From Methanospirillum sp. (lineage in GTDB: Archaea; Halobacteriota; Methanomicrobia; Methanomicrobiales; Methanospirillaceae), in the NCBI GenBank assembly GCA_012728895.1, contig JAAYEG010000038.1:1-64000 (forward strand): a stretch of 64,000 nucleotides of DNA, read 5' to 3'. The notes below the pieces were generated by a model. That model ran no database searches and was not told where the DNA came from. It saw only the letters and a program-made list of their open reading frames with translations. Shown one piece after another: positions 52,571 to 63,980 of the stretch. The position numbers and the translations under genes are program-made. Numbering within the stretch: position 1 is the first letter of the stretch; every line of letters begins with the position of its first letter.

Positions 52571-53180
52571 GGCCGAGCCGGCGGAGGAGGCGCCGGGCGA
52601 AGCGGAGCTTGCCGCGCTTCATCGGGTTGACCGCCTCGTCGTCCAGGTCGAAGCCGGCGAAGCGGATCGTGGCGGCTCCCAGGTGGTCGGCTGCGAACGC
52701 GGCCCGGTCTCCGTCCGAGAACCCGCCCAAGTTGTGCACGTGGGGGAGGGGGGGGCCCTGGGTCGTCCCGACGATCGGACCGGAGAACCGCGGTACCCAG
52801 CGACGCAGGAGGTTCGAGTTGTCGCCGTGGGCGTGCACGACCATGATCGTCCCCGCTGCGTTCATCTCGCAGAACGCGTCGGTGGCGCCGTCGAGGTCGG
52901 TGAAGACCGCGCCCGGCCTGACGCCGCGGGCATACAGGACGTCCGCCGCCCCGTCCGCCGCCAGGACGACCCCGCGGACCCGGCCGATCTCGCGGACGAG
53001 GGTCGGAGCGTTGCCGCAGACGGTGACGTCGCGCCCGCGGATCAGGCGCTCGAGCGGTTCGAGGTCGTCGCGCGGGAGGAGGGTGGCGAGGAGCGTGGCG
53101 GCATCCGCGTCGGCATCGCGGTCGAACGCGAAATAGTCGATGATCTCGTCGTAGAGGGGCGCCCACTCGTCATAGTTCAT
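52560..53180 (-). CDS. mptE: 6-hydroxymethyl-7,8-dihydropterin pyrophosphokinase MptE
   Basis: A 206-residue DUF115-family enzyme of archaeal tetrahydromethanopterin synthesis, activating hydroxymethyl-dihydropterin by pyrophosphorylation. Diagnostic segments are the N-terminal EWAPLYDEIIDYFAFDRDAD, the nucleotide-binding region VVLAADGAADVLYARGVRPG, VFTDLDGATDAF, IMVVHAHGDNSNLLRRW, IVGTTQGPPLPHVHNLGGFS and IRFAGFDLDDEAVNP. Length and pattern match Methanocaldococcus MptE. It overlaps the upstream DHH/TrkA gene and the downstream radical SAM gene by 11 bases each, so translation is coupled. Confidence 0.94.
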   Translation of the reverse strand: MNYDEWAPLYDEIIDYFAFDRDADADAATLLATLLPRDDLEPLERLIRGRDVTVCGNAPTLVREIGRVRGVVLAADGAADVLYARGVRPGAVFTDLDGATDAFCEMNAAGTIMVVHAHGDNSNLLRRWVPRFSGPIVGTTQGPPLPHVHNLGGFSDGDRAAFAADHLGAATIRFAGFDLDDEAVNPMKRGKLRFARRLLRRLGHDL

Positions 53181-54666
53181 TGCGCCCCTCTTTCTTGTCG
53201 AGGCCCACGATGGTCTCGAACCGCTTCAGGATGGGTTCGATGACGAGCGAGAGAAGCTGCTCCTTGTCTTTGACCATGGTGAAGTACGAGAGCGGGATCA
53301 CGGCCGCTGCCATGTTCGGGTGGCCGCCCGCGTCGCCGATCTCCCCGAAGGCCTCGGAGAGGACGGTCCCGAGGTCGATCCGGACGTCGCGAGACCGCGC
53401 CGTCAGGATGATCCCCGTGTCGCTGATCCCGTATATCAGGGCCGTGTTGACGCCCTCGAGGTTGATCAGATAGTCGGCGGCCTGGGGTAGGGCGTCGCGG
53501 TTCATGATGTACCCGACGTTTGAGAAGAGGTAGCCGGACCGGATCTCGCGGTTCTGGATCGCCTGGCCGAGGATGTCGAGCGTCTCCCTCGAGAGCGAGG
53601 GGCTCATGATCCTGTCGAGCAGTTCGTTGTCCCCGAGGGGGAGAAGGAAGGCGACGTTGTTGAGATCCTGCGGCGTCACGTTCCGCCGGAAGTCGCGGGT
53701 GTCGGCGCGGATCCCGTAGAGGAGGCCGGTTGCCACCTTCTTGTCGACCGAGACATCGAGATCCTGCAGGTACTGCGTCAGGATCGAGGCAGTCGCGCCC
53801 ATGGTGGGCCTGATATCGACGAACTCGGCTGTCGGGACCGCCTCGTCCTCGTGGCGGTGATGGTCGATGATGATCTGGACGGGGGTCCCCGGCGGGATGG
53901 CGTTGTTGACACCCGGTGCCGAGGAGTCGACGAGGGCGAGGTAGCGGCACTCCGCGAGCACCTGAGGGGTGAGCCGCTCCATCCGGATGTCGAGCAGGTT
54001 CACAAACGCCCGGTTCTCCTGGTGGCCGATGTTCCCATCGTACAGGATCCGCGTCTGGAGGCGGTGGTCGGTGGCCGAGCGGGCGATGGCGGCGAGCGCC
54101 ATCGCGGACGAGATCGCGTCGGGATCCGGGTTGCTGTGCGTGACGATCCCGAGAATCCCCTCCCAGGACTCGAGCAGGCGAAAGAGCCGCTGGGCGAGCC
54201 GGGTCACGTGCAGCCGGCGGATCTGGTGGACGGCCGCCCTCGCCACCACGTCCTGGGGATAGATCACGAACTCGGCGCCGGCCGCCTCAAGCGCACTCTG
54301 CGAGAGCGGGTCGAGTGCCCGGGCGATCACCTCGGTCTCGGGGTACCTGGCCTTGATCGCCTGGACGGCCGCGAGGTTCGCGTCCTTCTCGTTCGAGAGG
54401 ACGAAGACGACCTTGGGGGTCCGGAGTCTATCGAAGAGCGACGGGTCCCGTATGTCCCCGGTGACCGCCTCGTAGTTGAGCTCGAGCAGGTCCTTGACCC
54501 TCTTGTCGTCCTTGTCGACGACCAGGATCGACCTGGTCTCTCCGGAGAGCTCCTCGATCACGTTCCAACCGATGGAACCGCAACCGAGCACCATGTACTC
54601 GACCTCCCCCAGCGGCTCCCGGGGATCGGCGTCTGTCATGTTGAACAGGGTGGGTTGCCTGGCCAT
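53170..54666 (-). CDS. DHH phosphoesterase with N-terminal TrkA-N domain
   Basis: A 498-residue archaeal protein with a TrkA-N NAD-binding domain (residues 20-140: YMVLGCGSIGWNVIEEL, ILVVDKDDKRV, VVFVLSNEKDANLAAVQAI) and a DHH/DHHA1 phosphoesterase (IVTHSNPDPDAISSAMALAA with the DHH-type Asp cluster, LVDSSAPGVNNAI, IIDHHRHEDEAV, then GGHPNMAAAVI at the end). DHH proteins hydrolyse short oligonucleotides or cyclic dinucleotides (RecJ, NrnA, GdpP), so a nucleotide or c-di-AMP-type role is possible. The ATG at 54666 or at 54639 may be the start. It heads the mptE operon. Confidence 0.92.
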   Translation of the reverse strand: MARQPTLFNMTDADPREPLGEVEYMVLGCGSIGWNVIEELSGETRSILVVDKDDKRVKDLLELNYEAVTGDIRDPSLFDRLRTPKVVFVLSNEKDANLAAVQAIKARYPETEVIARALDPLSQSALEAAGAEFVIYPQDVVARAAVHQIRRLHVTRLAQRLFRLLESWEGILGIVTHSNPDPDAISSAMALAAIARSATDHRLQTRILYDGNIGHQENRAFVNLLDIRMERLTPQVLAECRYLALVDSSAPGVNNAIPPGTPVQIIIDHHRHEDEAVPTAEFVDIRPTMGATASILTQYLQDLDVSVDKKVATGLLYGIRADTRDFRRNVTPQDLNNVAFLLPLGDNELLDRIMSPSLSRETLDILGQAIQNREIRSGYLFSNVGYIMNRDALPQAADYLINLEGVNTALIYGISDTGIILTARSRDVRIDLGTVLSEAFGEIGDAGGHPNMAAAVIPLSYFTMVKDKEQLLSLVIEPILKRFETIVGLDKKEGRNEL

Positions 54667-55356: not shown

Positions 55357-55803
55357 TCACTCTGAAAGCCCGGCGTCGGCGAGCGACTCGAGCCGGCGGA
55401 GGATCGCCTGGATGTGCCCCTCGCGTAGCATCTGCGCGAGGTGACCCTCGCAGCCGACGTTCTTTCGGACATGGAAGGTCAGCAGACGCCTGATGACGCC
55501 GCAGTCCGCCCCGTCGAGCCTGGCTGGTTCACGGTAATACGCGACCGCCTCTTTCTCCCAGGGCCCCCAGTCGAACCGGACGATGAAGCCCGTGCGGTAC
55601 AGGGTCCTTTCGAACTCGTAGACCTCGCGCGTGTACTGTTCGAAGGGCCACTCCCGCTCCTCGACCACGACCTCGGGCAGGAACCGTGGGTCCTCGAATA
55701 TGGGTAGAAAGGCGAGCACGCCCTCGACTCCGGCCCGGGACGGGCGGGTATTCTCGTCCGCACCGATAATCACGCGATCGGCTCCATAAAGACCGGTGGT
55801 CAT
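55357..55803 (-). CDS. DUF6508-like protein
   Basis: A 148-residue protein with the pattern I associate with DUF6508: VLAFLPIFEDPRFLPEVVVE, FERTLYRTGFIVRFDWGPWE and LLTFHVRKNVGCEGHLAQML, ending ILRRLESLADAG. It is soluble with one central Cys, function unknown. The ATG at 55803 is chosen since the upstream extension to 55923 has no homology and reads as non-coding sequence. It is convergent with the small exported gene. The ATP synthase promoter lies about 200 bases beyond its start on the opposite strand. Confidence 0.75.
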   Translation of the reverse strand: MTTGLYGADRVIIGADENTRPSRAGVEGVLAFLPIFEDPRFLPEVVVEEREWPFEQYTREVYEFERTLYRTGFIVRFDWGPWEKEAVAYYREPARLDGADCGVIRRLLTFHVRKNVGCEGHLAQMLREGHIQAILRRLESLADAGLSE

Positions 55804-55998: not shown

Positions 55999-56011
55999 CG
56001 AAGTATTTAAG
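55999..56011 (+). promoter_or_regulatory. TATA-like promoter of the ATP synthase operon
   Basis: CGAAGTATTTAAG about 40-52 bases before the first ATG (56051) fits a strong archaeal promoter, with a purine-rich run (AAAAAGAAGAAGAAAAAAAT, 55973-55991) just upstream as a possible BRE/activator region. Transcription would begin near 56030, leaving a short leader with a GGTGGT Shine-Dalgarno (56041-56046). Confidence 0.6.
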
Positions 56012-56050
56012 TCCTTTTAGAGCAAGTCTGGCGTATCCCGGGTGGTCAGG

Positions 56051-56221
56051 ATGCCCTTCGATGTCGACAAGATCCGCGAGATGCAGCTTGCCGTACTCAG
56101 GAGGTGCGGGGACCGTATCGAGCGGGCGGGTTACACTCCGTCCGAGTGCTACCGTCTGGCAGACCAGCGGGCCTCGATGCGCGGATTCACGGGGGGGGTC
56201 CGAGCCCGGCATGGGTTGTGA
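56051..56221 (+). CDS. 56-residue protein, first cistron of the ATP synthase operon
   Basis: The ATG at 56051 follows GGTGGTCAGG and gives a 56-residue soluble, basic protein MPFDVDKIREMQLAVLRRCG, DRIERAGYTPSECYRLADQR, ASMRGFTGGVRARHGL. The first half should form an amphipathic helix. Its TGA overlaps the ahaH ATG (TGATG), so the two are translationally coupled. I do not recognise it, and canonical archaeal ATP synthase operons begin with ahaH. The good ribosome-binding site and promoter spacing make it a real gene in my view. It may be a small assembly or regulatory protein or a leader peptide. Confidence 0.65.
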   Translation: MPFDVDKIREMQLAVLRRCGDRIERAGYTPSECYRLADQRASMRGFTGGVRARHGL

Positions 56222-56550
56222 TGGGAATGGCGGAAGAGAAGTCGCTGCTCGAGCAGGTTCGGGAGAAGGAGCTCGCGCTGGCAGCGGAGTACGACCGCGT
56301 CTGCGCCCAGATGGATGCTTTGAAGGAGTCGGCCCGCCGTGACGCATGGTTGATAGTCGACCGGGCAGAGGGCGAGGGGCGCGCGGCGGCCTCTGCCCGC
56401 TACGACGAGGCGACGGCTGCGCTCGACGCCGAGATCAGCGCCATGCGCGAGGAGGCCCTTCGACGGGAGCGAGAGATGCACACGGCCATCGAGTCCCGCC
56501 TTGCCGGGGTGGCGGAGGAGCTTGTCGGGTACGTCGTCAGGAAGTCCTGA
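56221..56550 (+). CDS. ahaH: A1A0 ATP synthase subunit H
   Basis: A 109-residue long-helical protein forming the peripheral stalk with subunit E (G-subunit equivalent of V-ATPase). Heptad patterns run through LLEQVREKELALAAEYDRV, SARYDEATAALDAEISAMRE and EREMHTAIESRLAGVAEELV, with no signal or membrane segment. The ATG at 56221 overlaps the stop of the small upstream gene (TGATG). It is followed by ahaI after three bases. The length and order match the Methanosarcina aha operon. Confidence 0.9.
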   Translation: MGMAEEKSLLEQVREKELALAAEYDRVCAQMDALKESARRDAWLIVDRAEGEGRAAASARYDEATAALDAEISAMREEALRREREMHTAIESRLAGVAEELVGYVVRKS

Positions 56551-56553
56551 GCC

Positions 56554-58473
56554 ATGCTTGAGAAGATGAGCAGCATCGTCGTGGTCGGCCCGCGCGGCGA
56601 GACTGAGCAGATCGTCGACACGATATACCAGGAGGGGAGGGTTCATCTCGTCGACATCAGCCCGGATGCGACGGCCGGACACGGCGAACTCCAGCGGATC
56701 GACGAGGCGTCGCTCGTCGAGGTCGACCAGCTGCTGCTCAAGGTGAACGGACTGCTCAAGCTGCTCCCCAGAGAGCGCCCCGGCGCCAGAGGGGCTGAGG
56801 GGGTCGAAGATTCCCTGCGCTCCCTCCCCCTCAGCGAGATGATCGGGACCATCCGCAGCCGGCTCGAGGGGCTCGACGCGAAGACGGTGGATATGTCGAA
56901 CCGGAAGGCCGACCTGCAGCTGACGGCGACGACGCTTGAGCGGTACGCCCACATCCTGAGCCGCCTCCAGCCGATCGAGGACGCCCTGCCCCAGCTGGAG
57001 GGGTTCGAGATGACCGTCCTTCTGCTTCAGAAGGAATACGCCCACCTCTTCGAACAGATCGTGCCGAGGCTGCGCGAGATCACCAACAACCAGTTCGAGT
57101 ATGTCTCGGCCGAGCTCGACGAGTCGACCATCGCCGCCATCACGATCTTCAACAAGTGGTACTCGCGGGAAGTGCACTCCTTTCTCTTCTCCCAGAATGT
57201 CAACGAGGTCCGGATCCCGCCGGACTTCTCGGACATGCCCATAGAGGAGGCGATCAGGACCATCCGCCGGCAGCAGGAGGAGGGGCGCGCGGAGATCGGG
57301 CGGATCGACGCGGAGCTGTCAGAGCTCTCGGGCCGCTGGCGCCGGGAGTTGCTGGACATACAGCGGGTTCTCGAGGAGCAGCGCGACGAGCTCCGCGTCT
57401 TCTCCAGGTTCGCCCACACCGATTACACCTTCGTGATGAAGGGCTGGATACCCAAGTCGTCGATCCCGGGCGTCCGGAAATGCCTCCAGAACGTCTTCGG
57501 GGGGCGGGTAGCGCTCGCCGAGGTCCCGGCGACGCCCGAGGAGATAGAGGGGGCGCCCATCTCGTTTGCAAACCCGTTCTGGGCGCGACCCTTCGAGTTC
57601 TTCTCGCGATTGATGGGGTTCCCGAGGTACGGTGAGGTCGACCCCATCCCGTTCATGGCCATCTTCTTCCCGTTCTTTTTCGGCCTGATAGTGGCGGACG
57701 TCGGTTACGGGATATGCATCCTGGCGCTCACGCTCTTCATCCGGTGGCGGTATCCCGCGCTCGTCTGGCTCCGGGAGCTCGCGATGATCTTCATGATATC
57801 GGCGATCCCGACGATCATCTTCGGATATCTCTTCGGCGAGTTCTTCGGGGATTTCGGGGAACACATGGGCTGGTTCCATCCCGTCGTCTTCGCCGGGGTC
57901 ACCTGGAACCGGATGGAGGCGATGATCCCGCTCCTGGTCCTGGCCATCGCGGTCGGCGTGGCCCACGTTCTACTCGGGCTCGGGCTCGGAGTGGTGAACG
58001 CGGTGACCCGTCGGAACCGCCGCCACCTCTTCGAGAAGGTGGGGATGATCGCCGTGATCCTGGGCATCCTCCTGGTGCTCATCGGGGTGGTCGATCTCGG
58101 CCCGCCCGCACTTCTCCTGCTGGGAGCCGGCCTGCTCGTCCTTGGGCTCCCGCCTCTCCTCTACGGGGGCGGGGTCCGGGGAGCCGTGGAGATCATGGGC
58201 GCCATCGGCAACATCATGTCTTACGCCAGGCTCATGGCGATCGGCATGGCCTCTGTGCTTCTCGCGGTCGTCGCGAACGAACTGGCCGGCGCGGTCGGGA
58301 CGGTCTTGGTCGGCGTGCTGATCGCGGCCTCCCTCCACCTCCTGAACCTGGTCCTGGCCCTCTTCAGCCCGTTCATTCAGTCCACGCGTCTCCACCTCGT
58401 CGAGTTCAACTCGAAGTTCTACGAGGGTTCCGGGCGACCGTACGACCCATTCGGTTATCGCCCGGGCGGCTGA
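56554..58473 (+). CDS. ahaI: A1A0 ATP synthase subunit I (a subunit)
   Basis: A 639-residue subunit forming the ion half-channels and stator. The cytoplasmic N-terminal half (about 1-350) contains long helices and IVDTIYQEGRVHLVDISPDA, VMKGWIPKSSIPGV. The C-terminal half has about seven to eight transmembrane helices, including PFMAIFFPFFFGLIVADVGYG, MISAIPTIIFGYLFGEFFGD and YARLMAIGMASVLLAVVANE, the last with the conserved Arg that serves the ion path. It ends NSKFYEGSGRPYDPFGY, typical for the family. Downstream a hairpin and T-rich region precede ahaK. Confidence 0.95.
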   Translation: MLEKMSSIVVVGPRGETEQIVDTIYQEGRVHLVDISPDATAGHGELQRIDEASLVEVDQLLLKVNGLLKLLPRERPGARGAEGVEDSLRSLPLSEMIGTIRSRLEGLDAKTVDMSNRKADLQLTATTLERYAHILSRLQPIEDALPQLEGFEMTVLLLQKEYAHLFEQIVPRLREITNNQFEYVSAELDESTIAAITIFNKWYSREVHSFLFSQNVNEVRIPPDFSDMPIEEAIRTIRRQQEEGRAEIGRIDAELSELSGRWRRELLDIQRVLEEQRDELRVFSRFAHTDYTFVMKGWIPKSSIPGVRKCLQNVFGGRVALAEVPATPEEIEGAPISFANPFWARPFEFFSRLMGFPRYGEVDPIPFMAIFFPFFFGLIVADVGYGICILALTLFIRWRYPALVWLRELAMIFMISAIPTIIFGYLFGEFFGDFGEHMGWFHPVVFAGVTWNRMEAMIPLLVLAIAVGVAHVLLGLGLGVVNAVTRRNRRHLFEKVGMIAVILGILLVLIGVVDLGPPALLLLGAGLLVLGLPPLLYGGGVRGAVEIMGAIGNIMSYARLMAIGMASVLLAVVANELAGAVGTVLVGVLIAASLHLLNLVLALFSPFIQSTRLHLVEFNSKFYEGSGRPYDPFGYRPGG

Positions 58474-58591: not shown

Positions 58592-58804
58592 ATGGCAAGT
58601 CTTGAGGCATCAGTTGGAGCCGCGATCGCGTTTAGTTTTGGGTCGATCGGCACCGCCTATGCCCAGTCAAAGATAGGGCCGGCGATCGCTGGTACCCTCG
58701 CTGAGAACCCCGACATGGTGGGTCCGGCAGTGATTCTTGTCGCGCTTCCCGAGACACTCGTGATCCTGGGATTCGTCGTCGCGGCGATGCTCATCATCAT
58801 GTGA
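58592..58804 (+). CDS. ahaK: A1A0 ATP synthase subunit K (c ring)
   Basis: A 70-residue two-helix membrane proteolipid. Helix 1 covers GAAIAFSFGSIGTAYA and helix 2 VILVALPETLVILGFVVAAM. The ion-binding carboxylate is Glu54 in the PET motif, with Gln25 (AYAQ) in helix 1, the pair that in methanogens accompanies Na+ (or H+) binding. This is the single-hairpin type, not the double or triple hairpin of some methanogens. ATG at 58592 is preceded by GGTGGAG (58581-58587). It has its own presumed promoter. Confidence 0.96.
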   Translation: MASLEASVGAAIAFSFGSIGTAYAQSKIGPAIAGTLAENPDMVGPAVILVALPETLVILGFVVAAMLIIM

Positions 58805-58885
58805 GGGACGGAAAGGGCGAGTGGCCGCCCGTCGCGAGGGAGAGGGGGTGGCCCGATTCCACCCCGCACCGGGGAAGTGAGACAG

Positions 58886-59473
58886 ATGGCGTACGAGGAA
58901 CTGATCCGTTCCATGGAGATGGATGCCGCCCTGCGCATCCAGGAGGTGCGCGTGGCGGCGCAGGCCTTCGTCGACGAGACACTGGGTGCGGCCCGCCAGG
59001 AGGCGGACAGGATAACGGCCGGGCAGCTCGCCGAGGCCGAACGAAGGATCGAGGTCGAGCGGCACCAGCGGCTCTACCGGGTTCGGGAGGACCTGAAGGC
59101 CGACCTCGCCAGCATCCAGGAGAAGTATTTCCGGCGCGCCATCGCGATGGCGAGCGATGATCTGGCGCACCGTCGGAGTGACGGCGGGAACCCGGATGTC
59201 CTGGAGCACCTGATCCGGGAGGCGCTCGAGGCACTCGGGGAGAAAAGGGCGCGCGTCCACGTGGATCCGCGCGACGAATCGGCCGTACGCTCGATCCTGG
59301 CGGGCCTGCCGGGGGAGCTCGAGGCGATCCCCGACCTGGAGACCACCGGCGGCGTGGTCGTGGAATCGGCCGACGGGCTCGTCCGGGTCGACAACACCTT
59401 CGAGGCCCGCCTCTCCCGCGCCGCGGAGGTCCACCGCCAGGAGATCTATCGACGGCTGTTCGGAGGCGGGTAA
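58886..59473 (+). CDS. ahaE: A1A0 ATP synthase subunit E
   Basis: A 195-residue peripheral-stalk subunit. The N-terminal 100 residues form a long helix with heptads (LIRSMEMDAALRIQEVRVAA, AEAERRIEVERHQRLYRVRE), and the C-terminal half is the globular alpha/beta domain (GVVVESADGLVRVDNTFEAR). It pairs with subunit H. ATG at 58886 has GGGGAAGTGAG just upstream; a GTG at 58877 is possible. It overlaps ahaC by one base. Confidence 0.93.
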   Translation: MAYEELIRSMEMDAALRIQEVRVAAQAFVDETLGAARQEADRITAGQLAEAERRIEVERHQRLYRVREDLKADLASIQEKYFRRAIAMASDDLAHRRSDGGNPDVLEHLIREALEALGEKRARVHVDPRDESAVRSILAGLPGELEAIPDLETTGGVVVESADGLVRVDNTFEARLSRAAEVHRQEIYRRLFGGG

Positions 59474-60531
59474 TGGACCAGGGCTACATCAACGCCCGCG
59501 TGAGGGGGATGTACCGGACACTCCTCGGTCCAGACGCGCTTCGGAACCTGATCCTGGTGCCCGACCTGGATGCGATGATCTCCGAGCTCCAGAAGACCCC
59601 GTACCGAGAGGAGCTCGAGACCTCGTGCGTCCGCAGATCGAGCGTCGTCTGCATCGAGGACGCGCTCCGCCGGCACCTCGCGCGGGTCTACTCGAAGATC
59701 CTCGCGATGTTCGACGACCAGCGCGAGTCCCGGGAGGCCCGCTATGTCCGCATCTTCCTGAACCGCTGGGACGTGCACAACCTCAAGACGATCCTGCGGG
59801 GCAAGTCCATCCGTTCCTCCCCCGAGGAGATCCGCGAGGCCCTCGTCCCTGCCGGCACTCTCGACGAGGCGACCCTGGTCGAACTGCTCAAACAGAACGA
59901 CGTGCGGCAGGTCATCGACCTGCTCGCCACCTGGAATATCGACTACGCGAAGGCCCTGACGCCGAACATCGACGAATGGAGCCGTTCGGGCCAGCTGCTC
60001 GTCCTGGAGCACGCGCTCGACAGGTACTACTTCCAGTACGCCCGGGACGCCGTCCGGGGCCGGCAGCCCGAGGCGTTCGCGCTCCAGGAGCTGGTCGGGA
60101 CCGAGATCGACGTCACCAACCTCAAGACCGTGATCACCTTCATCCGGGATGGTATCGACCTCGAGGACGGGGAGCGGTTCCTGCTGGAAGGTGGAGGAGA
60201 GCTGACCACGGAGGTGCTCAGCGGAATGGTCTCCGACGGGAATCTCGGGAAGGCGGGGGAGCGGCTCGAAGGAACCCGCTTCATCTCTCTCAGGCCCCTG
60301 CTGACCGAGGCGCAGAACAGCGGCCGATTTTCGCCCGTCATGAAGGAACTCGACTGGCACCTGATCCGCGCCGGCGCGTCCCTCTTCCGCAGGGACCCGC
60401 TCAGCATCACGGTCGTCATCGGTTTTCTCTACCGCTTCCTGATCGAGGTCACGAATATCCGGATCATCGCCCGGTGCAGGGACGCCGGGCTCTCCGACGA
60501 GGAGTTGGAGGCGGAGCTGATCCATGTATAA
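59473..60531 (+). CDS. ahaC: A1A0 ATP synthase subunit C (d-type)
   Basis: A 352-residue helical funnel linking the central stalk to the c ring. Recognisable segments are INARVRGMYRTLLGPDALRN, RYVRIFLNRWDVHNLKTILR, WNIDYAKALTPNI, EIDVTNLKTVITFIRDGID and LYRFLIEVTNIRIIARCRDA, repeated helical hairpins typical of V-type subunit C/d. It overlaps ahaF by eight bases. Confidence 0.94.
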   Translation: MDQGYINARVRGMYRTLLGPDALRNLILVPDLDAMISELQKTPYREELETSCVRRSSVVCIEDALRRHLARVYSKILAMFDDQRESREARYVRIFLNRWDVHNLKTILRGKSIRSSPEEIREALVPAGTLDEATLVELLKQNDVRQVIDLLATWNIDYAKALTPNIDEWSRSGQLLVLEHALDRYYFQYARDAVRGRQPEAFALQELVGTEIDVTNLKTVITFIRDGIDLEDGERFLLEGGGELTTEVLSGMVSDGNLGKAGERLEGTRFISLRPLLTEAQNSGRFSPVMKELDWHLIRAGASLFRRDPLSITVVIGFLYRFLIEVTNIRIIARCRDAGLSDEELEAELIHV

Positions 60532-60844
60532 GTTCATGGTGCTGACCGATCCCGACACGGCCGCGGGGTTCCGGATGGCCGGCGTTGACACCTGGGAGGC
60601 CTGGAACATCGAGGAGGCCCGGCGGATGCTCCCCGAGCTGATGCTGGAGGGCGATGCCGGGATCATCGCGGTGAATGAGGACTTCATGCAGGGACTCGAC
60701 GAGCGGCTGATGAACCGGATCGAACGGTCGGCGCGTCCGATCGTGATCCCCATACCCGGGCGTTCCCGGAAGGGAGGGGGAATGGACTACATCGAGAGAC
60801 TTCTCCGCCGGGCCATCGGGTACAACGTTGTGTTGAGGCGGTAA
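60524..60844 (+). CDS. ahaF: A1A0 ATP synthase subunit F
   Basis: A 106-residue central-stalk subunit with a CheY-like fold: [40 protein letters not shown] and [20 protein letters not shown], ending with the helical tail that inserts into the AB hexamer. The ATG at 60524 overlaps ahaC by eight bases. ahaA follows after two bases. Confidence 0.93.
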
Positions 60845-60846
60845 CA

Positions 60847-62586
60847 ATGATCCAGGGCGAAGTAATCAGGGTCTCGGGGCCGGTGGTCCATGCCGGCGGG
60901 TTGCGAGGCTCGAAGATGTACGACGTGGTCATGGTCGGCGAGGAGGCGCTCACCGGGGAGGTGATCCGGCTCGACCAGGACGTCGCGATCATCCAGGTCT
61001 ACGAGGACACGACGGGGCTCGGGACCGGGGAGGTCGTCGAGAACACGGGCGAGCCCCTCCGCGTCGAGCTGGGCCCGGGCCTCCTCACCTCGATCTACGA
61101 CGGGGTCCAGCGCCCGCTCCCGCTCCTCGCGGAACAGAGCGGCGACTTCATCTCCCGGGGGCTCCGCGTCCCCGGGATCGACCATTCACGGCGGTGGGAG
61201 TTCGAGCCTGTGGCCCGGGAGGGCGACGCGGTCGGCCCGGGCGACGTGCTGGGGACCGTCCGGGAGTATCACCTGGAGCACCGGATCCTGGTGCCCCCCG
61301 GGGTGAGCGGGACCCTCGAGAGCGTCTCGGACGGCTCGCTGACCGTCGACGACGTGGTCGCCAGGCTCGACGGCGAGCGTCCGATCCCGATGGTGCAGGC
61401 CTGGCCGGTGCGGAAAGGCCGGCCGTACGCCCGGAAGCTCGACCCATCCCTGCCGCTGGTGACCGGGCAGCGGATCTTCGATTCGCTCTTCCCGATCGCC
61501 AAGGGCGGGACGGCCATGATCCCGGGGGGGTTCGGTACCGGAAAGACCGTCTCGGAGCAGACCCTCGCCAGGTGGGCCGACGCCCACGTGGTGGTCTATA
61601 TCGGCTGCGGCGAACGCGGCAACGAGATGACCGACGTCCTCTCCGAGTTCCCCGAACTGGTGGACCCGCGCACCGGCAACCCCCTGATCGAGCGGACCAT
61701 CATGATCGCCAACACCTCTAACATGCCCGTCGCGGCCCGCGAGGCATCGATCTACACCGGGATCACCATGGCCGAGTACTACCGCGACCAGGGCTACGAC
61801 GTGGCCCTTCTCGCGGACTCCACCTCGCGGTGGGGAGAGGCGCTCCGCGAGGTCTCGGGCCGGCTCGAGGAGATGCCCGGCGAAGAGGGGTACCCGGCGT
61901 ACCTCGCGGCCCGGCTCGCGGCCTTCTACGAGCGGGCAGGCCGGACGGCCTGCCTGGGTGCAGGTGACCGGGCGGGTTCGGTCACGGTGGTTGGCGCGGT
62001 CTCCCCGCCGGGCGGCGACTTCTCGGAGCCGATCACGCAGAACACGCTCCGGATCGTCGGGACCTTCTGGGCGCTCGACACCAACCTTGCCTACCGCCGC
62101 CACTTCCCGTCGGTGAGCTGGATCAAGTCCCACTCTCTCTATCTCGACAGCCTGAAAGACTGGTACTCCGCCTCCGTCGCACCCGACTGGGTCGCGCTCC
62201 GGGACCGGACCATGTATCTCCTCCAGAAAGAGGCCGAGCTGCAGGAGGTCGTCCAGCTCGTCGGGCCCGACGCCCTGCCCGAGGGCGAGAAGGCGGTCCT
62301 CGAGGTCACGCGGATGCTCCGCGAGGACTTCCTCCAGCAGAGCGCCTACAGTCTGGTCGACGGATTCTGTCCGCTGGAGAAACAGTACCTGATGCTCAAG
62401 GCGATCCTGGCCTACTACGACGCCGCGGTCGCCACGATGGGCCGCGGTGTCGCCCTGCGGCAGGTGCTCGCCCTGCCCGAGAAGAACGAGATCGCCCGGA
62501 TGAAGGAGCAGTACGACGCCCCCCGGATCCGGGACCTGATAGAGTCGATCGGGGTCTCGGCCCGCGCGCTGGAGGCGGAGCGATGA
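60847..62586 (+). CDS. ahaA: A1A0 ATP synthase catalytic subunit A
   Basis: A 579-residue ATP-hydrolysing/synthesising subunit. It has the archaeal non-homologous insertion after the N-terminal barrel, the P-loop as [16 protein letters not shown] near residue 230 (GGFGTGKT where many archaea have GPFGSGKT), the catalytic [35 protein letters not shown] and the C-terminal helical domain. Length is full. Start ATG 60847 lies two bases after ahaF. It forms the hexamer head with subunit B. Confidence 0.97.
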
Positions 62587-63980
62587 GGCCGCTCTTCACG
62601 AAGGAGTACCGGACCGTCAGCTACGTCTCCGGCCCGCTCATCTACGTGGAGAGGCCGCGCCGTATCTCGTACGGCGAGGTGGCCTCGATCACGCTCCCCG
62701 ACGGGGAGGAAAGGACCGGGCAGGTGCTCGACATCTCCCGCGAGGTCGCGGTGGTCCAGGTCTACGAGGGCACCAACCGTGTCGACGACCGCGACACCCG
62801 GGTCCGGTTCACGGGCGAGCCGCAGCGGCTCGACGTCTCGATCGAGATGCTCGGGCGGGTCTTCGACGGCCTGGGCCGCCCCCGCGATACGCGCCCGCCC
62901 ATCGTCCCCGAGGAGCGTCCCGATATCAACGGGATGCCGATCAACCCGTTCGCACGGGACAAGCCGGCGGACTTCGTCCAGACCGGGGTCTCGGCGATCG
63001 ACGGGCTGAACACCCTGGTCCGGGGCCAGAAGCTCCCGATCTTCTCGGGCGCGGGATTGCCGGCGAACCGGCTCGCGGCCCAGATCACGCGGCAGAGCCG
63101 GGTGCGCGAGGAGGAGGGGAACTTCGCGGTCGTCTTCGCCGCGATGGGAATAACCTGGCAGGAGGCCTCGTTCTTCACCCAGGAGTTCGAGGAGACCGGC
63201 GCTCTGGAGCGCGTCATCTTTTTCCTGAACTTGGCCGACGACCCGACCATCGAGCGGATCGCGACTCCGCGATGCGCGCTCACCGCCGCCGAGCACCTGG
63301 CCTACGCACACGACCTGCACGTCCTGGTGATCATGACGGACATGACCAACTACTGCGAGGCCCTTCGCGAGATCTCCACGGCCCGTGAGGAGGTGCCGGG
63401 GAGGCGCGGCTACCCGGGATACATGTACACGGACCTCTCTTCGCTCTACGAGCGCGCAGGCCGGATCAAGGGGCGTAACGGCTCGATCACGCAGATCCCG
63501 ATCCTGACCATGCCCGATGACGACATCACGCACCCGGTCCCCGACCTGACCGGGTACATCACCGAGGGGCAGATCGTCCTCTCGCGCGACCTCTTCCGCC
63601 GCGGGATCGATCCCCCGATCGACGTCCTCCCCTCGCTCTCCCGGCTGATGAGCCTCGGGATCGGTCCCGGAAAGACCCGGGAGGACCACCGGAACGTCTC
63701 GGACCAGGTCTATGCCAGCTACGCCTACGGGCGGGATCTCCGGCGGCTCGTTGCGATCGTCGGGGAGGAGGCCCTGACCGAGCTCGACCGGGCGTATCTC
63801 GCCTTCGCCGACAGGTTCGAGGGGGGCTTCGTCTCTCAGCGGAACGAGGACCGGTCGATCGAGGAGACGCTCGGCATCGCCTGGGAGCTGCTCTCGAGCC
63901 TGCCGGTCCACGAGCTGAAGCGGATCAGCCCGGAGCTGATCGACCGCTACCACCCGACGCACGGGAAGGAAGAGTCGTGA
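62583..63980 (+). CDS. ahaB: A1A0 ATP synthase subunit B
   Basis: A 465-residue regulatory subunit of the A3B3 head. It keeps the overall ATPase fold ([60 protein letters not shown]) but lacks a normal P-loop, as expected for non-catalytic B, and ends [19 protein letters not shown]. It overlaps ahaA by four bases (ATGA) and ahaD by four (GTGA). Start ATG 62583. Confidence 0.97.

Follow-up and report, generated by a model that had tools for sequence, protein, structure and literature searches.

The window, meaning the whole 64,000-nucleotide stretch of the Methanospirillum sp. contig JAAYEG010000038.1 (assembly GCA_012728895.1) that was analysed, carries an A-type ATP synthase operon whose cistrons follow the order small gene, ahaH, I, K, E, C, F, A, B, all on the forward strand. 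The small gene occupies positions 56051–56221, with an ATG start codon at 56051 and a TGA stop codon at 56219–56221, and its product is a protein of 56 amino acids, MPFDVDKIREMQLAVLRRCGDRIERAGYTPSECYRLADQRASMRGFTGGVRARHGL. As the preliminary description had stated, it is the first cistron of the operon and stands directly before ahaH.

The gene for an ahaH-like stator subunit (56227–56550) was recognised from its position and from the pattern M.EEK.LLEQVREKE of its homologues, while no Pfam or NCBIfam match above cut-off was obtained for this reading frame. It is followed by ahaI (56554–58473; PF01496), which belongs to a clade designated type 1 and defined below. The remaining genes are ahaK (58592–58804; PF00137 and comparison), encoding a c subunit with a single hairpin and the motifs AQSKIG and PET, ahaE (58877–59473; PF01991), ahaC (59473–60531; PF01992), ahaF (60524–60844; PF01990), ahaA (60847–62586; PF00006, PF16886, and PF22919), and ahaB (62583–63980), the last assigned by homology to AhaB of other type-1 operons (73–90%). 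On the reverse strand, a gene for a DUF6508 (PF20118) protein (55357–55770) is divergent from the operon, and a homologue occurs in the same neighbourhood of a genome of the same genus (G001). A protein joining a TrkA-N domain with DHH/DHHA1 domains is also encoded near the operon on that strand (53170–54666).

A promoter and a GGTGGT ribosome-binding site had been proposed for the small gene, and both could be located. The putative archaeal-type TATA element of the operon promoter, TATTTAAG, was read from the sequence by consensus only and lies at 56004–56011 on the forward strand, about 40 nt 5' of the small gene; TATTTATG was found at a nearly equal offset in two loci of the same genus (L087 and L089). 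The candidate Shine-Dalgarno sequence GGTGGTC (56041–56047, forward strand) is separated from the ATG by 3 nt.

The boundary with ahaH required a correction. The TGATG overlap described earlier is present in the window sequence, but relatives of the same genus read TGATC at this place and share the next ATG, which corresponds to window position 56227. For this reason, the ahaH start is most likely the ATG at 56227, 5 nt past the small-gene stop codon, with 56221 as a further possible start; the overlap as the true start was rejected by the locus comparison. GTGAT at 56218–56222 (forward strand), read as GTGATC in the same-genus loci, is the likely Shine-Dalgarno sequence of ahaH. It overlaps the small-gene stop codon, and translation of the small gene and ahaH may be coupled through it.

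An open reading frame of 56 codons is by itself unremarkable in such GC-rich DNA; the homology of its product, in contrast, was far above chance. Homologues in four other genomes of the genus were 50–56% identical (E values of 2e-12 to 5e-14), and more remote homologues were found mostly 5' of an ahaH-like reading frame. A profile built without any member of the genus picked only the small reading frame among the 1,037 of the window (E = 4.6e-10), with the runner-up at 0.09 and the best match of the reversed-frame control at 0.95. For close pairs, dN/dS was mostly 0.1–0.4, indicating purifying selection; one pair gave a value above 1, based on just three synonymous changes. Both homologues and codon-level conservation, on which the preliminary description had made the reality of the gene depend, were consequently found. 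Judged by these comparisons, the reading frame at 56051–56221 is a genuine protein-coding gene.

The family shares the motif I..LK..A..RC.ERI..A...G.TS.LK.RHGL-COOH, which the window protein matches. Across 77 members, C19, R22, and G55 were invariant and R18, A26, G45, and L56 nearly so. The C terminus was HGL, RGL, or YGL in 69 of 82 members, and the C-terminal half otherwise diverged among members. The basic character claimed for the protein was borne out, with a net charge of +4 in the window and a family median of +5. The proposed amphipathic N-terminal helix fared less well: the window member scored 0.41 for helical amphipathicity, but the family as a whole gave 0.31 versus 0.29 for shuffled sequences. 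No transmembrane helix was detected, the window protein being charged throughout, with no hydrophobic segment that could cross a membrane.

The impression that the sequence resembles nothing known was also correct as far as curated families are concerned. No credible Pfam or NCBIfam family was obtained for 32 members, the PDB sequence search gave no match (including no analogue among solved A/V-ATPase chains), and Foldseek returned no fold match. Two hits of single members, to RPAP1_C (0.027) and F-type subunit B (0.028), were judged to be chance. No description of the gene was found in a literature search of open-licence PMC papers. The small gene is a member of a previously unnamed and unannotated family in methane-producing archaea.

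When AhaI proteins were compared with the window AhaI as phmmer query, they fell into two classes, type 1 with at least 558 bits and type 2 with at most 210 bits. In a tree made with a quick method and rooted at the midpoint, type-1 AhaI formed one group (SH-aLRT 100), which clustered with A/V-ATPases of Actinomycetota and Deltaproteobacteria/Myxococcota, separate from every canonical archaeal AhaI in the sample.

In the order Methanomicrobiales, profile searches detected the small gene in about 104 of 232 genomes, and type-1 AhaI was present in 100 of the 232. Both occurred together in 95 genomes, the small gene only in 9, type-1 AhaI only in 5, and neither in 123 (Fisher p = 2e-47, a statistic that ignores shared ancestry). 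All nine genomes with the small gene only were incomplete or fragmented assemblies. Beyond the order, the gene was found in Methanocellales and in one further family of the phylum, with two genomes each of families f14, which includes Methanocella paludicola (G248), and f7.

In a phylum sample of 394 genomes there were 46 carriers: the small gene was present in 46 of 48 genomes with type-1 AhaI and in none of 346 without it, so that no family member was found outside type-1 carriers. As for the two exceptions, G258 retains a recognisable remnant with ambiguous bases in it, and G014 is without the gene. Weak matches in other families of the phylum, seen with the first profile at E of about 0.01, were gone with the 77-row profile. 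The eight bacterial relatives of type-1 AhaI and the canonical archaeal relatives were all without the small gene. It was evident that the gene follows one divergent ATP synthase clade and not archaeal ATP synthases in general. The simplest account would be one gain in the methanogen branch and a few losses. Since two type-1 operons (G014 and G209) have no detectable copy, though the operon or much of it is kept, the small gene is not strictly essential.

The position of the gene was mostly constant. Among 54 copies with a located ahaH start, 38 lay within 21 nt of that start, and most copies were 5–21 nt 5' of ahaH. Where the operon is split (loci L059 of M. paludicola and L071; genomes G248 and G031), the small gene stays with ahaH-ahaI and not with ahaKECFABD. 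It was likewise found with ahaH-ahaI in L069 and L070, with no further aha gene within the stretch fetched. The divided arrangement (small gene-ahaH-ahaI and ahaKECFABD) of L059, L069, L070, and L071 belongs to M. paludicola and part of Methanoregula; the AhaI proteins of these operons group together in the tree, which suggests a transfer between orders.

Relocated copies were also observed. In Methanocalculus and several genomes of the Methanoregula group, the only copy or a second one is placed at the 3' end of the operon, convergent with ahaD, and in one Methanocella sp. (G265) the gene is convergent with ahaI. In G011, a copy is located on a different contig with no aha gene nearby. Both displaced copies of the latter two genomes (L062 of G265 and L137 of G011) are near 2-oxoacid:ferredoxin oxidoreductase genes. 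In genus g8, a 260-nt gap holds an intact tandem copy of the small gene in G170 and G172 (L067, 11298–11722, and L068, 11449–11877) and apparently decayed remnants of one in some sister species (L079, L085, and L091). As the sequence is kept after relocation, the gene appears to act in trans through its protein and not as a cis-acting leader.

The host carries both types of AhaI, type 1 and canonical, and a second, canonical AhaB (66% identical) is encoded on another of its contigs (C64). Several of the carriers examined likewise have a second, canonical synthase. In G028, read as Methanospirillum hungatei JF1, three copies of AhaB were counted, in agreement with the genome paper of this strain, which reports three Aha clusters with 27 genes, arranged as usual, and does not refer to an additional gene (PMC4704411). 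The small gene of G028 (1996657–1996821) lies 5' of the type-1 cluster and adjoins a second cluster, an arrangement that resembles the neighbouring Aha2 and Aha3 clusters (Mhun_1757–1765 and 1768–1775).

The c subunits of type-1 operons mostly read AQ(S/A)(R/K)IG together with PET, with M in place of Q in Methanocalculus, and canonical c subunits of the order mostly have E at the position of Q. By analogy with Ilyobacter, the glutamine and Pro-Glu-Thr pattern of the type-1 c-ring hints at a predicted Na+-type site.

Taken together, the small protein very probably serves the type-1 ATP synthase in one accessory role or another. Assembly factor or stator regulator appears to be the best class of explanation, and nothing points to the rotor. 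The best explanation as a whole, to which about an even chance is given, would be a soluble, basic, mostly helical accessory component of the type-1 A-type synthase, likely on the stator/AO side. It is based on the linkage to ahaH-ahaI, the small size, the basic charge, and the conserved tail. Its targets would be AhaH in the peripheral stalk and AhaI, with the protein either assisting assembly or stability or being bound as a small subunit. Most of the contact may be provided by the N-terminal helix, which bears the invariant RC..R motif, and the tail conserved at the C terminus (HGL/RGL) may dock into a pocket; sequence and structure searches (PDB and Foldseek) gave no match pointing to a contact surface. 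AlphaFold2 predicted a helix at residues 5–28, with pLDDT of about 86–95 over its first half, compared with 64–69 for the protein's second half. Among the possible roles, that of an assembly or stabilising factor is preferred, followed by a hydrolysis inhibitor and, third, a stoichiometric subunit, a tentative ranking drawn from sequence data.

The inhibitor would be an analogue of IF1 or epsilon, a regulatory protein whose helix or C-terminal tail would keep the enzyme from hydrolysing ATP once the ion gradient has collapsed. A small, basic, helical protein with a conserved C-terminal tail could play such a part, and its occasional loss and displacement, together with the second, canonical synthase of several carriers, are consistent with it; such control would be useful to organisms that possess two synthases and live close to the energetic limit. 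However, in split operons the gene accompanies the stator genes ahaH-ahaI and is parted from the catalytic genes. Searches of Pfam, NCBIfam, and the PDB related the sequence to no known inhibitor, and the comparison with IF1- and epsilon-type inhibitors yielded neither a PDB-chain match nor a fold match. This reading is considered rather unlikely.

A structural role in the type-1 synthase at fixed stoichiometry, for instance as an additional element of the peripheral stalk or as a peripheral AO protein, would agree with the near-obligate co-occurrence and with the position in the operon. It is harder to reconcile with G014 and G209, which lack the gene, and with copies on the opposite strand, outside the operon transcript, for which matched expression is not guaranteed. 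The protein matched no known A/V-ATPase subunit in Pfam, NCBIfam, or the PDB, and it has no analogue among the solved chains. A subunit of this kind is regarded as improbable.

It is more doubtful still that the gene is a passenger in the operon and serves a different pathway. The unlinked copy of G011, adjoining 2-oxoacid:ferredoxin oxidoreductase genes, and the copy of G265 near such genes would favour this, but no genome of the phylum sample had the small gene without the type-1 synthase, and the gene has stayed with the operon through several rearrangements. The translated leader suggested earlier, in which translation would control ahaH in cis by coupling or attenuation and the peptide would have no function in trans, fits a first cistron after the promoter whose stop codon is overlapped by the ahaH Shine-Dalgarno sequence, but it is strongly disfavoured by an amino-acid sequence conserved across two orders under purifying selection and by the same motifs in convergent 3' copies and in the unlinked copy of G011, which cannot lead ahaH.

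An accessory protein on the stator/AO side can be compared with known small proteins of ATP synthase operons. UncI/AtpI of F-type and Vma21 of V-type enzymes are assembly factors and integral membrane proteins, and UncI is encoded by the first gene of its operon. The family described here resembles them as a small non-catalytic protein, and UncI also in gene position, but it has no membrane-spanning segment and no Pfam match.

AhaG of Methanosarcina mazei is likewise a small protein (6.3 kDa) of an archaeal ATP synthase operon, absent in several archaea, with an unsettled role in the enzyme (PMC4350412). It is encoded by the last gene of the aha operon and described as giving a very hydrophobic tryptic peptide (PMC4350412). 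By this description, the two differ: the small gene is located 5' of ahaH or convergent after ahaD, not downstream of ahaD on the operon strand, and the window protein is basic, without a hydrophobic stretch.

The inventories of ATP synthase subunits are regarded as settled, and yet one synthase clade has a near-universal protein that is not curated. Its carriers are widespread methane producers, including cultured ones (Methanospirillum, M. paludicola, and Methanocalculus). It is conceivable, as a tentative proposal from the sequence comparisons, that the protein is a subunit or regulator specific to the type-1 clade and enables methanogens to operate two A-type synthases side by side, for example by controlling the assembly or direction of the second enzyme. 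One of the two would be canonical, and the other of the type that groups with bacterial A/V-ATPases and has a Gln/Pro-Glu-Thr, Na+-like ion site in its c ring. The family provides a handle on a question recorded for M. hungatei, namely the reason why two or three ATP synthase clusters are retained in some methanogens. Where a genome paper discusses a single synthase for a species, as was the case for M. paludicola, only one enzyme of a pair whose predicted ion sites differ may have been covered.
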